DNA of 64,000 nt from Melioribacter sp. (GTDB taxonomy: Bacteria; Bacteroidota; Ignavibacteria; Ignavibacteriales; Melioribacteraceae): NCBI GenBank assembly GCA_003155655.1, contig PMDS01000026.1, positions 26,161 to 90,160 on the forward strand, read 5' to 3'. A program made the position numbers and the translations under genes. How positions within the stretch are numbered: the stretch's first letter is position 1; every line of letters starts with the position of its first letter. The notes under the pieces are model-generated. The model was not told the DNA's origin. It worked only from the letters and a program-made list of their open reading frames with translations, and did not search any database. This document shows positions 42,855-50,109 of the stretch, in pieces.

Positions 42855-43736
42855 TTATAAAGAGATATCGTTTTTGCGTACATCAAGACCCCAGTATAAT
42901 TTATTGCGTAAAATTTCGTAATAGTTTATCCTGTTAGAATGAACCAGGTTTACCGGCTTAACATCTTTTTCAACCTGGATTGTTAAAGGTGAATTATAAA
43001 ATTCTACACGCTGCCCGTCGCAGCTAACTTGAATTTTATCTGACAGAGAATTCGCAATAACAGTAATTTTTTGCATGCTTGAAATAATTAAAGGGCGCAT
43101 AGTAAGAGTATGCGGGGCAACAGGACTTAAAGTAATTACATCAGCTTTCGGGTTAATAATTGGGCCTCCTGCAGATAAAGAATAACCAGTGGAACCGGTT
43201 GGAGTTGCAATTATTAAACCATCGGCAGAAAAAGTTGAAACATAATCATCATCAACTTTGATTGTTAAGTTTATCATTTTAGGCCATGGGCCCTTATCAA
43301 TCACTATATCATTAATTGCATACAATTCTTTATTTTCTTTTTCTACAGAGCCGGCAATTAAAGCCATTCTTTCTTCAATGACATAATTTTTAGTCTTAAC
43401 ATCGTGCAGAAAATCAGTAAAGCTGGATAAATCAAATTCTGCAAGAAAGCCAAGTTTGCCATAATTCACACCCAGGATAGGAGCGCTTGAATTCCGGATT
43501 TCATAAGCAGTATTTAACATTGTTCCATCACCGCCAATGGATAAGACCATATCACAATTTTTACATAATTGATCGTGAGTTAAAAATTGTGATTGTCTAT
43601 CGAATTGTTCCTTGTACTTCAAAAGTGAATTGCTGAGAATATACTTAAACCCATTTTGGTTTAACTGTTTTATAATTTCTATTACAATTGAGAGAATATC
43701 GTTTTTAGAAATATTTGGAATTATTCCTATTGTCAT
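42855..43736 (-). CDS. nadK: NAD kinase
   Basis: A 293-residue ATP/polyphosphate-dependent NAD kinase, the only route to NADP. The catalytic GGDGTMLNTAY motif, VNYGKLGFLAEF, the NE/D-type AINDIVIDKG segment (here Asn-Asp), TPTGSTGYSLSAGGPI and LSPVAPHTLTMRPL are present. ATG 43736 gives the typical MTIGIIPN start and overlaps the upstream stop codon (ATGA); an ATG nine codons earlier lies within the previous gene. It is translationally coupled to the glycosyltransferase upstream. Confidence 0.96.
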   Translation of the reverse strand: MTIGIIPNISKNDILSIVIEIIKQLNQNGFKYILSNSLLKYKEQFDRQSQFLTHDQLCKNCDMVLSIGGDGTMLNTAYEIRNSSAPILGVNYGKLGFLAEFDLSSFTDFLHDVKTKNYVIEERMALIAGSVEKENKELYAINDIVIDKGPWPKMINLTIKVDDDYVSTFSADGLIIATPTGSTGYSLSAGGPIINPKADVITLSPVAPHTLTMRPLIISSMQKITVIANSLSDKIQVSCDGQRVEFYNSPLTIQVEKDVKPVNLVHSNRINYYEILRNKLYWGLDVRKNDISL

Positions 43737-44506
43737 TTTGATTTTTTCCCGTTTAGCTCCCATAATTTACAGTACTTCGTAAAAACATAGGCAGAAGAAA
43801 AGATAGCAAGTATTAATCCGTTAATTCCATCAAGAAAACCAAACCGGAAAATATACATTTTTAGAAAAAGAAATATTGGTCTAAGTATAATATCATTGAG
43901 GGAAGCATGTTTTCCATTGTCATAAAGTTCTGAGGCAGCCAGGGATGTATACGTATTGAATTTGCTAAAATAATGCTCAATTGACGGGTCGGTATAATGA
44001 TTTAGATCGTATTTCAAGTGACCAATTTCGCAATTAATTATTAATCCTTCATGAACTTCCTTTTCATCGAAATGAATCATTTTTTTGTTAAAAAGCCTGG
44101 TAACACGGGAAGGATACCAGCCGCTATGTTTAATCCACTTACCAAGAAAAAAGGCTCTGCGTGCAATGTCATAAGCATTGAACTGCGGTATATTTTCCTT
44201 AAAATATTTTAATTCATCTCTAAGCTCACCGGTCAATTCTTCATCGGCATCAATCCACAAGACCCAGTCATATTTTGTTTTTGAAACGGCATAAGTTTTC
44301 GTTTTTGAGTAGCCCTGCCATTCAACAACTTCACAATCAACATTTTTGTATGATGAAGCGATCTGCAAAGTTAAATCTTTAGTCCTTGAGTCTATAATAA
44401 GAACAATATTATCTATTATATTTATTTGACTCTCAATGCAGCGCCCAATGTTTTTTTCCTCATCGCGTGCAATAATGATTGAGGACAGTTTAAGTTTTTC
44501 TGCCAT
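43733..44506 (-). CDS. Family 2 glycosyltransferase, WaaE/KdtX-like
   Basis: A 257-residue GT2 enzyme with the N-terminal SSIIIARDEEKNIGRCIES segment, metal-binding WIDADEEL and the FFLGKWIKHSGWYPSRVTRLF block, which is typical of the WaaE/KdtX lipopolysaccharide-core glucosyltransferases. The C-terminal ~60 residues are hydrophobic and probably membrane-associated (ILRPIFLFLKMYIFRFGFLDGINGL). It directly follows the O-antigen-ligase-like gene (no gap), which supports a role in surface glycan assembly. Donor and acceptor are not determinable from sequence. Confidence 0.88.
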   Translation of the reverse strand: MAEKLKLSSIIIARDEEKNIGRCIESQINIIDNIVLIIDSRTKDLTLQIASSYKNVDCEVVEWQGYSKTKTYAVSKTKYDWVLWIDADEELTGELRDELKYFKENIPQFNAYDIARRAFFLGKWIKHSGWYPSRVTRLFNKKMIHFDEKEVHEGLIINCEIGHLKYDLNHYTDPSIEHYFSKFNTYTSLAASELYDNGKHASLNDIILRPIFLFLKMYIFRFGFLDGINGLILAIFSSAYVFTKYCKLWELNGKKSK

Positions 44507-46582
44507 TTATATTTTATTCTTGCTGTTTCCTGAATTATATAATCTATAAAGAGCCAGATTAAGCCCAAAAGTGAACCACACCATAGTAATAATTTCATGA
44601 TCGCCGAAATTCCATTCGGCAATACCTGCAAATAAAAATCCTATAAAAGCAGCAAACGTTCCCAGTGAAAACGCTGAGATGAACTGTATGTCTTTTAGAT
44701 CCACTGCAATTTTTAGATTAGTTCTAAATATTTTTATCAACATCCACATGATAATTATAAATCCAAAAACGCCAAAAATTACAATAAACTGGGTATAGTT
44801 ATTATGGAGATGTCCAAAATTTTCCTTTTCATAAGCCGCTCTGTACTTAGCATAAGCATGCTCAACACCAATATCGCCAATTCCAAAAACAGGATGGTCT
44901 TTGAAAATTCTCATTGCCGTTTGGAACTGATCTATTCTTTGAATATTTGTCATCCAGTATGGATCAACAATAGTTCTTAGCCTGTTATGCTTTTCAAAGC
45001 CATAATATATATTATTCCCAACAACCTGCATGCTGTTGGGAACAAAATCCAATTTTACTTTGTCAATTAACTGCAAAGTATTTATCAGAGGATATTGGAC
45101 CGAATACATATTACCAGATAAATCCAGCATAAATAATTTATTAGCTGCGATACAATACTGCGCAACACCCTTTATTTCCTTATTTTCTAAAATATATTTA
45201 ACCGAGTCATTTTTTACTTCAAATAGTTTTAAACTTCCCTCCATACTTAACAGAATGTATTTGTCGTCACCCAATAAATCTCCCAGGGTAGTATTAATTT
45301 TTTCTGAATATATCAATTTATCAGGCAGGAAATTTTTTAATGAATAGACAAACAGGTCATTACCGTAAGTGTAATAAGCAAGATAAGTATTCGAGACAAA
45401 ACTACTCTTAACATCCCTGGCAAAAACAAATCTTGCCGTATCTTTCAAATTATTCATTGAGCGGAATACTGTCAGTCCGCTGTCTTTATCAAACACATAA
45501 AAATATTTATTTGCTATGTTAAAAGAATTTGTTTGACCCGGGGAAATAAAAGTTTTTACTATTCTAAGGCTGTCGGTATAATTAAGAATTAAGAATCTTG
45601 AATCGATCAGGTTAGCCAGGTAATTCTTATCATCGAATTTGGCAATACTCCAGACCGGCCTTGGCAATTCAACTTTACCAACAAGTTTTTCTCCATTATA
45701 TACTTTTACTCCCTGCTGATAATCCGCATCCAATATTTTACTACTATCGGCATAAATATCCATCACTTTGCCGTCAGTAACTATTTCACTATTTTTAACC
45801 AATTTACCATTCTCAAAAGAATACTTGTAAATTTTGCTTACATCGGGACTTAATGCTACAACTGCCGCAATTAATATTATAATAGTTCCAATCATCCACC
45901 ATTTTTTCTTAAATATCAGAACAGCTGTAATGCCCGCAAAAGTACCAATCCACGAAGCTCTTGTATAACTTGCAGCAATTGCAAAAAATGAAATTAAAAA
46001 TCCAAATAGGTAATACAATTTTTTCTTATCCCATTTATTTTCATTTATAAAAAAGGAGAAGAAAAATATTGTGGTAAACATCATCAACCCGCCGGCAGTC
46101 ATTACATACTGAAAAGGTGATGGTCCACGGGCTTCTAATGAATATAAATGGTGTATAAAATGTTCATAAGCAAAACCAATGTAGACACAAATTGTAAGTA
46201 GAGCGGCCGTCATATAAGTTTTCACAAACAGTTTGCCGCGTTCAATATCTGTAGCGGAAATCATAATTACATAAACAATCGGGATTTGCAGCATTCTTTT
46301 AACCAGGTTTTCCATTGCATTTGGTTTGTAGTCAGAAACATTAGCCGAGACAAGTTCAACAAGAAAAAATAAAATGAAAAATACTTCGAACCCGGTTTTG
46401 GGAAATTGGTTCTCATTGGTTTTAAAGTAACGGACAAAAATAAAAAACAATGCAAAGTAGTAACCGATCTGGTTTACAAAAATTGAATTGTCGAGACTAA
46501 GAAGAAAAACCATTACAAACACAAAAATTATTTTGTCAATTGTTTGCGGACTTAAAATCTTAGAAGAAGTCTTCATTTCCAT
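44507..46582 (-). CDS. O-antigen ligase-like membrane protein with a large beta-rich insertion
   Basis: A 691-residue Wzy/WaaL-type protein. Residues 1-246 form about nine membrane helices, including the SYTRASWIG motif (Arg208) that precedes the big periplasmic loop in O-antigen ligases. Residues about 247-545 form a long soluble, strand-rich region with repeated patterns such as KVYNGEKLVGKVELP, YFYVFDKDSGLTVF, YLAYYTYGNDLFVYSL and KYILLSMEGSLKLFEV, reading like a beta-propeller. The domain then resumes with FKDHPVFGIGDIG, the His-rich GHLHNNYTQF (His591/His593) and three or four helices. Normal members have only a short loop here. It heads a minus-strand run with the GT2 gene. Confidence 0.8.
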   Translation of the reverse strand: MEMKTSSKILSPQTIDKIIFVFVMVFLLSLDNSIFVNQIGYYFALFFIFVRYFKTNENQFPKTGFEVFFILFFLVELVSANVSDYKPNAMENLVKRMLQIPIVYVIMISATDIERGKLFVKTYMTAALLTICVYIGFAYEHFIHHLYSLEARGPSPFQYVMTAGGLMMFTTIFFFSFFINENKWDKKKLYYLFGFLISFFAIAASYTRASWIGTFAGITAVLIFKKKWWMIGTIIILIAAVVALSPDVSKIYKYSFENGKLVKNSEIVTDGKVMDIYADSSKILDADYQQGVKVYNGEKLVGKVELPRPVWSIAKFDDKNYLANLIDSRFLILNYTDSLRIVKTFISPGQTNSFNIANKYFYVFDKDSGLTVFRSMNNLKDTARFVFARDVKSSFVSNTYLAYYTYGNDLFVYSLKNFLPDKLIYSEKINTTLGDLLGDDKYILLSMEGSLKLFEVKNDSVKYILENKEIKGVAQYCIAANKLFMLDLSGNMYSVQYPLINTLQLIDKVKLDFVPNSMQVVGNNIYYGFEKHNRLRTIVDPYWMTNIQRIDQFQTAMRIFKDHPVFGIGDIGVEHAYAKYRAAYEKENFGHLHNNYTQFIVIFGVFGFIIIMWMLIKIFRTNLKIAVDLKDIQFISAFSLGTFAAFIGFLFAGIAEWNFGDHEIITMVWFTFGLNLALYRLYNSGNSKNKI

Positions 46583-46853
46583 TCTGTAATTCCTGTTGAT
46601 TTAATTAGCAATTATGAATTAGCTGCCATCACAAAACTGTGTTAAAAAAATCCATTTCTATTAGTACAAATTTAGAAGAAAATCAGCTAAATACACTATT
46701 TCAATTATAAACGATTTAATTATCTCGCATTTTTTTCCAATATTTGAAGCCGAATATTGAATTAATATCCAACAATTTAGAGAATAATAAAGACTATGGA
46801 TATTAGCTCTTTTCGATTTCAAAAGTATATTACAAAACTAACAGCAAGTGAAC

Positions 46854-48674
46854 ATGAAAACATTCTGGCGTTTTTTCTCTTACATAAAACCTTATAAGGT
46901 TTCGTTAATTCTAGCTGTAGTAAGCTCTTTGCTGTTTGTTCTCTTCAATCTCATATCAATAATACTAATTATGCCCTTCATAGATATTCTATTTGGCAAA
47001 CCGGTAACAGCGCCTGTTCAACAGATAGAACTAAGTATATTCAACCTTAAAGATTACTTTACATACAAACTAGGGGAGTTGACTTCCGACTATAGCAAAA
47101 TAGTCCTTATTAAATATTTATGTATACTAATGATTGTTGTTTTCTTTCTAAAAAACTTGTTCACTTATTTACAGACTTATTTTATGGCTACCGTTGAACA
47201 GGGGATGATTAAAGACATACGCGGGGCATTATATAGTCATTTTCACAAACTTCCATTAAGTTTTTTTACAGAAGAAAAAAAGGGAACATTAATTTCGCGC
47301 ATTATTAATGATGTACAAATAATAAAAGACTCAATTGTTGCAGTAATAAATAGTTTATTTAGAGATCCGGCATTAATTATAAGTTTTTCACTTGTTCTTT
47401 TTATTTATAACTGGAAACTGACATTAATGATTTTTCTAATTGTTCCAGTCACAGGAATAATTTTATCAAAGATTGGCGATTCCCTAAAAAGAAAAAGCAC
47501 AAGGTCGCAGGAAAGTGTAGCAGCAGTTACTTCTATTCTGGATGAAACGTTTGGCGCAATGAGGATTGTTAAAGCATTCAACATGGAAGAATATGAGATC
47601 GGTAGATTCAATAAAGCTGAGAACAAATACTTTCATTTACTTACGCTGCTGGCGCGAGGCAGAGCTCTTTCTTCACCAATAACAGAAACAATAGGTGTTA
47701 TTGCAGTGGCAATTATCCTTTATATAATTGGCATCGATGTTCTTTCTGGTGACAGCTCAATGACACCTGGAGGATTCATTTTTTACCTTGCCATTTTCCT
47801 GCAAATGATGCCTTCACTTAAATTATTAGGGCAGGTTTACAATAGTATAAAAGAAGGCACCGCGGCATCAGAACGAGTTTTTGGTATACTTGATATCAAG
47901 CCTAAAATATTAGAGATTGAAAATGCCAGGGATATAAATTCCTTTAAAGGAAAAATTGAGTTCAAGAATGTCAGTTTCAAATATGAAAAAAGTGAACTTA
48001 TTTTAAGCGGAATTAACTGTACAATACCCAAGGGTAAAATTGTTGCAATTGTGGGGCCCAGCGGCGCCGGTAAATCTACATTCATTGATTTAATTCCCCG
48101 CTTTTATGATGTAACAGGAGGCGCTGTTTTAATTGACGGAATTGATGTACGCGAACTAAAAATAAAATCGTTACGCGACCTGATGGGTATTGTAACTCAA
48201 GAGACTATATTGTTTAACGACACTCTGTATAATAACATTTCTTACGGTTCCAACACTCGTTCCGAAGAGGAAATTATTAACGCAGCAAAAGCAGCTAACG
48301 CACATTCATTCATCGAAGGTTTTCCTGAAGGATATCAATCAATTATTGGGGACCGCGGGGTTAAATTATCCGGGGGAGAAAAGCAAAGAATATCGATTGC
48401 AAGGGCCCTTTTGAAAAATCCGCCAATATTAATTTTGGATGAAGCGACTTCTTCACTTGATACAGAATCTGAACTGCTCGTACAACAGGCTATTGAAAGA
48501 CTTATGGAAGGCAGAACTTCAATAGTAATTGCACATCGTCTTTCTACTATAAAACATGCAGATAATATACTTGTAATTAATGACGGAAAAATTGTTGAGG
48601 AAGGACGCAGTGTAGACCTTCTAAAGCATAAAGGCGTATACTCTAAACTTTACAATATGCAATTCAAGCTTTAA
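46854..48674 (+). CDS. msbA: ABC exporter, MsbA-like lipid A flippase
   Basis: A 606-residue half-transporter: six membrane helices (1-325) fused to a nucleotide-binding domain. It has Walker A GPSGAGKST, Q-loop VTQETILFND, signature LSGGEKQR, Walker B ILILDEATSSLD and the H-loop AHRLST. Overall it resembles MsbA and related lipid or polysaccharide exporters; lipid A or lipid-linked oligosaccharide is the likely cargo, given the glycan genes divergently placed upstream. ATG 46854 is used; GTG 46848 two codons earlier is possible. The 265-bp divergent spacer upstream should hold both promoters. Confidence 0.88.
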   Translation: MKTFWRFFSYIKPYKVSLILAVVSSLLFVLFNLISIILIMPFIDILFGKPVTAPVQQIELSIFNLKDYFTYKLGELTSDYSKIVLIKYLCILMIVVFFLKNLFTYLQTYFMATVEQGMIKDIRGALYSHFHKLPLSFFTEEKKGTLISRIINDVQIIKDSIVAVINSLFRDPALIISFSLVLFIYNWKLTLMIFLIVPVTGIILSKIGDSLKRKSTRSQESVAAVTSILDETFGAMRIVKAFNMEEYEIGRFNKAENKYFHLLTLLARGRALSSPITETIGVIAVAIILYIIGIDVLSGDSSMTPGGFIFYLAIFLQMMPSLKLLGQVYNSIKEGTAASERVFGILDIKPKILEIENARDINSFKGKIEFKNVSFKYEKSELILSGINCTIPKGKIVAIVGPSGAGKSTFIDLIPRFYDVTGGAVLIDGIDVRELKIKSLRDLMGIVTQETILFNDTLYNNISYGSNTRSEEEIINAAKAANAHSFIEGFPEGYQSIIGDRGVKLSGGEKQRISIARALLKNPPILILDEATSSLDTESELLVQQAIERLMEGRTSIVIAHRLSTIKHADNILVINDGKIVEEGRSVDLLKHKGVYSKLYNMQFKL

Positions 48675-48873: not shown

Positions 48874-50109
48874 TCAATATAAACTGTTAAGACCACATCC
48901 GCCTGTTACAGAAATTGTATAATAATACTTATCTTTAATAAAATCATAAACCGCAATCTGCGAATTATTTCCCAGTCTTTGATCGAAGAATAATAATCTT
49001 CCATTAATTAAGATATTTTCATAACGGAACCCGGCAAATATTTTTTGAAGTTTCATCTCCTTTGCATTAATAACAAGTAATTCCCCGGAAGATTCTTTTT
49101 TCTTTCGCGGATTTTCGGGTACGGTATTATTGGTTACAATAAATAAATAATTACCATCGTCAGACCAGCGAGCGTCATATATTGTTCTAATTGTAACTGC
49201 AATTAATTCTTCCGAGCGTTTATCAAGATCTTTTAAATAGCAGTATGATTTGCCCTGTGTGCCGACAATTCTTAGCTGGTAATTTTTCAAGGGAGATAAA
49301 GTAACAGGCACGCGTTTCGGGGGCAGCGGGAATCCATCCTTAAATAAATCATACTTTCTTGTTTTAGTAACGCCTAAAATGCCGTTTTTATCAATTGAAT
49401 AAATTTTTTGAACTACCGTTTTAGAATCCGTACTGTCAGTTGAGGAATAATTTACTTTAAGCGTGTCATCATTCTCCCAATAAGTATAAAGCTGAACACC
49501 ATCATCAAGATCAATTATTTCATTGTCCTGGTCATCACCTCTTTTTAGAAGAAAGACTTTCGCATTGCGTACATAAGAGAGGCCAGCTTCCTTACCAAAA
49601 TTCTGTGCGGTTGATATAACGAAGGTGTGTGCATCCTTAGAATGATTCAACTCAACTACTTTTGCGTTTAGCCTGCTCCATACAACTTCAATTTGTTTTG
49701 TAATTAAATTAAAATTAAACACAGCCGGTTTGTCGGGATATTGTGCAACAAACAACACATTTGCAAAATCATCAAGAATTTGTTTGCCATGTATTATAAT
49801 CTTGTAATTCCCTATAAACCGGTCAGAGTGTAAATTAAAAGCTGTTTTGCCGGCTTCAAATGAATTAGTGAAATGACCATATAAGAGAATATATTTTTTA
49901 TCATTAATTTTTTCAATGCGTAAACTATCCTTGATTGTAGTATCCATCTTAGTTTTTAATTCGATTGCTTGTTCAACCTTTTTAAATTCCCCCAGAAGAA
50001 TTGAATACTTGTTTTGTAGAGTCTCATCCTTCGGATTTGGATTACAGGCAGCAAAAAAAATACAAGCTAAAAAAATTATTACCAAAAATATTCTTGAAAA
50101 TTTCCACAT
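48874..50109 (-). CDS. Putative lipoprotein with beta-propeller-like repeats, function unknown
   Basis: A 411-residue exported protein with a lipoprotein signal ending IFFAAC (Cys22), followed by NPNP. The region after about residue 60 is strand-rich with repeats such as KKYILLYGHF, IYDARWSDDGNYLFIVT and LLVINAKEMKLQKIF. The WSDDGNYLFI phrase is typical of TolB/WD40-like propellers. I do not recognise a named family. It is probably surface- or periplasm-facing on a membrane. The xerD gene lies 18 bp upstream on the same strand. Confidence 0.65.
   Translation of the reverse strand: MWKFSRIFLVIIFLACIFFAACNPNPKDETLQNKYSILLGEFKKVEQAIELKTKMDTTIKDSLRIEKINDKKYILLYGHFTNSFEAGKTAFNLHSDRFIGNYKIIIHGKQILDDFANVLFVAQYPDKPAVFNFNLITKQIEVVWSRLNAKVVELNHSKDAHTFVISTAQNFGKEAGLSYVRNAKVFLLKRGDDQDNEIIDLDDGVQLYTYWENDDTLKVNYSSTDSTDSKTVVQKIYSIDKNGILGVTKTRKYDLFKDGFPLPPKRVPVTLSPLKNYQLRIVGTQGKSYCYLKDLDKRSEELIAVTIRTIYDARWSDDGNYLFIVTNNTVPENPRKKKESSGELLVINAKEMKLQKIFAGFRYENILINGRLLFFDQRLGNNSQIAVYDFIKDKYYYTISVTGGCGLNSLY

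Follow-up and report, generated by a model that had tools for sequence, protein, structure and literature searches.

The locus examined here raises the question of whether an O-antigen ligase of Melioribacter sp. carries a folded domain inside its catalytic loop and, if so, what that domain might contribute. A sequence-only reading of the 64,000-nucleotide stretch of DNA that we analyzed (hereafter the window) had placed an O-antigen ligase fold at 44507-46582, interrupted in its catalytic periplasmic loop by a propeller-like insert. These coordinates are right, and the gene lies on the minus strand, as do all ligase features given below; the plus strand across this interval holds many stops. 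The interruption itself was borne out by profile searches, structure prediction and phylogeny. The open reading frame, Pfam and AlphaFold2 together describe a 691-residue protein of the Wzy_C family with a propeller insert. Two stretches of it match Pfam Wzy_C (PF04932; E 1.5e-17, 64.2 bits against a cut-off of 31.7), and a family profile search identified WaaL (7TPG/7TPJ; CAZy GT121) as the closest solved relative, a similarity seen at the profile level only (E 3.9e-7). On sequence grounds, the protein is probably a WaaL-type O-antigen ligase, which would join sugar chains to a lipid of the outer surface.

The full-length AlphaFold2 model, built with 60 relatives (pLDDT 93.7, pTM 0.91), predicts 12 transmembrane (TM) helices, as counted on the model, and a large periplasmic loop after TM9. 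AlphaFold2 secondary structure and alignment with insert-less homologues assign residues 1-246 (45845-46582) to TM1-TM9 of the membrane domain, while residues 532-691 (44510-44989) comprise the catalytic portion of the periplasmic loop and TM10-TM12, as judged from Pfam, the model and alignment with 7TPG. Because propellers dominated the structural matches of the full model in Foldseek and VIA, the membrane fold was judged by profile, and the absence of WaaL from those matches is uninformative.

An insert of 285 residues (247-531; 44990-45844) separates TM9 from the catalytic portion of the loop; it is absent from insert-less homologues, and AlphaFold2 predicts it to be a seven-bladed beta-propeller. 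Because TM1-TM9 precede it, the insert should be periplasmic if the N terminus is cytoplasmic. Folded alone, it gave a pLDDT of 96.7 and a pTM of 0.92. In both the full-length and the insert-only model, 28 strands make up seven four-stranded blades, with blade 7 closed by the pairing of strands 248-257 and 260-268 with 517-521 and 524-531, as read from strand order. The propeller can be superposed on solved ones at Z 24.7-24.8 (2.7 A over 261 residues), so that both strand number and structural similarity identify a seven-bladed propeller. The compact fold suspected from the letters was thus recovered in both predictions, with a correction to its limits. The start at residue 247 stands, and the proposed end at 545 is about 14 residues too far, the real end lying near 531: residues 532-545 (the HNRLRTIVDPYWMT region) also occur in insert-less relatives, whose matches start at 532-533, and therefore belong to the ligase. 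As modeled, an architecture in which a ligase is interrupted by a propeller in its catalytic loop is near certain.

A Pfam scan of the insert in the window's protein gave zero matches, LVIVD (PF08309) included. Among 53 relatives, 15 matched LVIVD at E up to 10, and the curated cut-off of 20.2 bits was exceeded in two of the four that were rescanned (49.6 and 28.7 bits). These matches in relatives point to an LVIVD-type source of the propeller. LVIVD-repeat propellers have been described for cell-surface proteins (PMC2447325); unlike those, the propeller considered here sits within a membrane enzyme.

The residues expected of a ligase are retained around the insert. Arg208 and His591/593 had been noted on either side of it, and these positions hold, with Arg549 to be added. 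Arg208 (45959-45961), at the periplasmic end of TM8, is by conservation and alignment to 7TPG the counterpart of WaaL Arg191; Arg549 (44936-44938) is likewise conserved and aligns with residue 265 of 7TPG, making it the counterpart of WaaL Arg265. The conserved His591-Leu592-His593 (44804-44812) aligns with the HAHN of 7TPG, where His593 corresponds to WaaL His313. In WaaL, R191, R265 and H313 have been named with their roles (PMC10920833), and R208, R549 and H593 supply the equivalent two phosphate-binding arginines and catalytic histidine. Arg208 was invariant in the first alignment and conserved at 90% or more in the 61-sequence alignment, in which R549, H591 and H593 were all invariant; R208, R549 and H593 are conserved in forms with and without the insert. 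In Wzy polymerases of clan GT-C1, the position of the ligase histidine is taken by Asp or Glu in all families but one (PMC10920833), so the invariant H593 favors a ligase rather than a Wzy polymerase. As an aside, propeller ligases fall into two active-site subtypes with co-varying motifs at family residues 138-165 and 205-210, VMTAGG with SYTRAA (24 sequences) and PIT..E with TYKRTG (40 sequences).

The long form was found in 42 of 294 genomes of the class, the window's own genome counted, and in families f1, f2, f3 and f13 only. Among named strains, at least Stygiobacter electus 09-Me (L079) has it. Long forms are 27-46% identical to the window's protein; beyond them, the best matches in the 294 genomes fall to E 6e-38 and cover only residues 532-680 or 1-250. 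In the first alignment, the segment from 247 to 545 measured 294-306 residues in every one of the 40 relatives (lengths taken with the boundaries of the sequence-only reading), which argues that the insert is not due to chance. Among the Wzy_C matches listed from 118 genomes of the phylum, the domain is uninterrupted almost everywhere, and the split matches, which start at profile position 62-80 in frames of 688-709 aa, correspond to the propeller clade. The other listed Wzy_C frames above 600 aa showed an uninterrupted match, the exception being a 725-aa frame matched only in part (2-127). A search of the phylum with a profile of the insert returned, outside these ligases, only weak partial matches in other proteins. 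The insert is thus no normal feature of Wzy_C proteins at large, but neither is it a one-off, since it is fixed in the orthologues of one clade. Longer frames in other families (L158-L161) were considered as further inserts and rejected, being either unrelated frames or ordinary ligases extended upstream by read-through. In another Bacteroidota lineage, a Wzy_C match is spread over 708 bases (G343:C12:28091-28798), a spread suggestive of another, different insert some 90 residues long.

In a tree restricted to columns of the membrane domain, one change (support 91 by a quick method) separates the long forms from the short, so that a single insertion in the ancestor of the long-form clade suffices. 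Loss of the insert alone was seen in none of 55 long forms, and 12 aligned insert-less homologues have three residues at the propeller's site. Alignment of long and short forms revealed a second difference, an 8-residue insertion in the TM5-TM6 periplasmic loop of propeller forms (residues 147-154, Y-x5-G-P; 46121-46144), which is missing from all 12 of these homologues and in which every one of the 55 long forms has G153 and P154. Half of the positions conserved only in long forms (11 of 22) are periplasmic (P 0.02). Within the limits of the sampled tree, the propeller and loop 147-154 would have arisen together.

Conservation within the propeller is unevenly spread. Mean pairwise identity is 24.7% in the insert versus 47.1% in the membrane domain, and near-invariant insert residues include T269, G271, D287, G291, P309, D327, R329, G349, D365, D367 and G369. 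Scored by loop, this conservation marks out top-face elements at T269-G271, leading into blade 1 (45770-45778), D287-Y-x-x-G291 in blade 1 (45710-45724), D327-x-R329 in blade 2 (45596-45604) and D365-x-D367-S-G369 in blade 3 (45476-45490). When the 27 loops are ranked by conservation, the first six places go to the six D-A and B-C loops of blades 1-3, each of them on the top face; that a single contiguous series of top-face loops should fill those places by chance has a probability of about 3e-5, in a test framed after the data had been seen. Over all blades, the difference in conservation between top and bottom loops was not significant (P 0.063). The conserved D...G loops are partly a structural signature of LVIVD blades. 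The membrane domain joins blade 7 after strand B and before strand C, that is, on the top face, where it replaces one loop; the conserved patch of blades 1-3, which takes in all the near-invariant residues named above, P309 and G349 included, is thus placed on the enzyme side. Given strand topology and the high pTM, the patch should face the enzyme, an orientation more in keeping with docking or binding of a substrate than with a free-standing sensor of carbohydrate or protein, the possibility raised in the sequence-only reading. Covariation pairs linking propeller and active site mostly trace one split into two subfamilies, and we did not count them as evidence.

The gene order around the ligase is largely shared with insert-less relatives. 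On the other side of the ligase from a syntenic family 2 glycosyltransferase (43733-44506, minus strand; PF00535, E 9.4e-13) and NAD kinase (42855-43763, minus strand; a syntenic marker) lies an MsbA-like lipid A ABC exporter (46848-48674, plus strand), a syntenic partner that is inverted in this genome and matches TIGR02203 at E 2.3e-168 and 561 bits, under the 602-bit cut-off. Insert-less homologues at the same locus occur in Ignavibacteria families outside the clade (e.g., L105 and L107) and in L112, of the Calditrichota. Most of their loci keep the order MsbA-like exporter, ligase, family 2 glycosyltransferase and nadK, so these homologues are probably positional orthologues. They share the catalytic residues and, where the locus is complete, the gene order with the propeller form, at 25-31% identity overall, and differ from it at the propeller site and in loop 147-154. 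The genome encodes one further Wzy_C protein, whose gene sits in a polysaccharide cluster next to that of a Wzx-like flippase, leaving the propeller protein to serve as the ligase.

Taken together, we lean slightly toward a WaaL-type ligase with a built-in docking cap. Such an enzyme would transfer an undecaprenyl-diphosphate-linked glycan to lipid A-core at the periplasmic face of the inner membrane, with ligation at R208, R549 and H593. Its LVIVD-type seven-bladed propeller would have been inserted once, between TM9 and the segment bearing R549 and H593, in the ancestor of an Ignavibacteriales-like clade. With the membrane domain in place of one top-face loop of blade 7, the top face would be turned to the active site, and the patch of blades 1-3 together with loop 147-154 would form a vestibule above it, into which the donor glycan or the acceptor core would dock, or else a tightly bound partner. 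More generally, the propeller probably aids the enzyme's choice or hold of a substrate or partner. A narrower version, in which the patch acts as a recognition cap that binds donor or lipid A-core and selects the chains to be ligated, perhaps those anchoring cargo of the type IX secretion system (T9SS), is a tentative proposal; we know of no WaaL enzyme for which substrate gating by such a cap is recorded.

Periplasmic propellers commonly bind proteins, and the propeller might instead be a scaffold that binds no substrate and recruits an envelope protein, such as a component of the Lpt bridge, MsbA or a T9SS component. The periplasmic scaffold BamB is among the top Foldseek matches, msbA is a constant neighbor, and the genome encodes about 90 T9SS C-terminal domains, all of which would suit recruitment; we nevertheless regard it as unlikely, since the conserved patch is predicted to lie on the face toward the membrane domain and not on the exposed one. 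Protein recognition would also be served if the enzyme were a PglL-like protein O-oligosaccharyltransferase whose propeller, a plausible module for that purpose, selects acceptor proteins. Wzy_C spans both ligases and protein O-glycosyltransferases, two activities that sequence alone cannot separate, but lpxC in the genome, together with the MsbA-like exporter and glycosyltransferase genes that often accompany the ligase, favors a lipid A-core acceptor and makes this alternative rather improbable. The low identity of the insert relative to the membrane domain is what one would expect of a neutral or merely stabilizing insertion with no specific role. Its constant length, the lack of insert-only loss among the long forms, the near-invariant residues gathered largely on one face and the co-occurrence of loop 147-154 all argue against this, and we consider it very improbable.

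Compared with known systems, the docking-cap ligase that we favor resembles WaaL in its Wzy_C homology, 12 predicted TM helices, TM9-TM10 periplasmic loop and equivalently placed two arginines and one histidine, and departs from it in the propeller at the start of that loop and the TM5-TM6 insertion. An O-antigen ligase with an extra domain has precedent in Brucella WadA (PMC9938171), but there the addition is an N-terminal cytoplasmic glycosyltransferase domain, unlike the periplasmic propeller in a loop described here. In Porphyromonas gingivalis, T9SS cargo is anchored to A-LPS, which is bound by PorZ, a protein with two propellers (PMC8545088). PorZ and the ligase both have a propeller and come from the same larger bacterial group, although PorZ is a surface protein with a T9SS domain and is no enzyme; by analogy, a glycan-binding role for the ligase propeller is plausible. 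The literature that we searched contained no description of an O-antigen ligase or Wzy_C protein with a propeller in its loop. The propeller ligase is a real, clade-specific variant of a known enzyme. Domain insertions are common; a full propeller in the catalytic loop of a ligase, with a conserved face predicted to look toward the active site, is unusual, and we count the surprise as moderate. To our knowledge, how periplasmic WaaL ligases choose donor and acceptor is poorly understood. The propeller ligase and its insert-less homologues at the same locus offer a natural pair, with and without, for the role of an accessory domain in ligation.

In some close relatives (L148, L157, L150 and L151), two of which belong to the same genus, the ligase gene is cleanly missing from its place next to msbA, before the glycosyltransferase, and the locus is otherwise retained, so the gene is dispensable in some lineages. 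Elsewhere, the slot after msbA holds a distant short Wzy_C-type ligase (L149:2595-3764, L154:2318-3499 and, as two frames, L156:5038-6218). In the window, the orientation of the msbA-like gene relative to the ligase is unlike that in every relative where both were found. Its product is 46-49% identical to MsbAs of the same genus, which are 78-97% identical among themselves, and the flanking genes are normal; it looks as if a distant homologue had replaced the gene in situ. The window's ligase is 38-43% identical to same-genus copies, themselves 54-57% or more identical, and may have been exchanged together with msbA. Between xerD and msbA, many relatives share a gene found here at 48874-50109 (minus strand), which encodes a fast-evolving putative lipoprotein without a Pfam or NCBIfam match, and the short-strand repeats of this product look propeller-like by eye.
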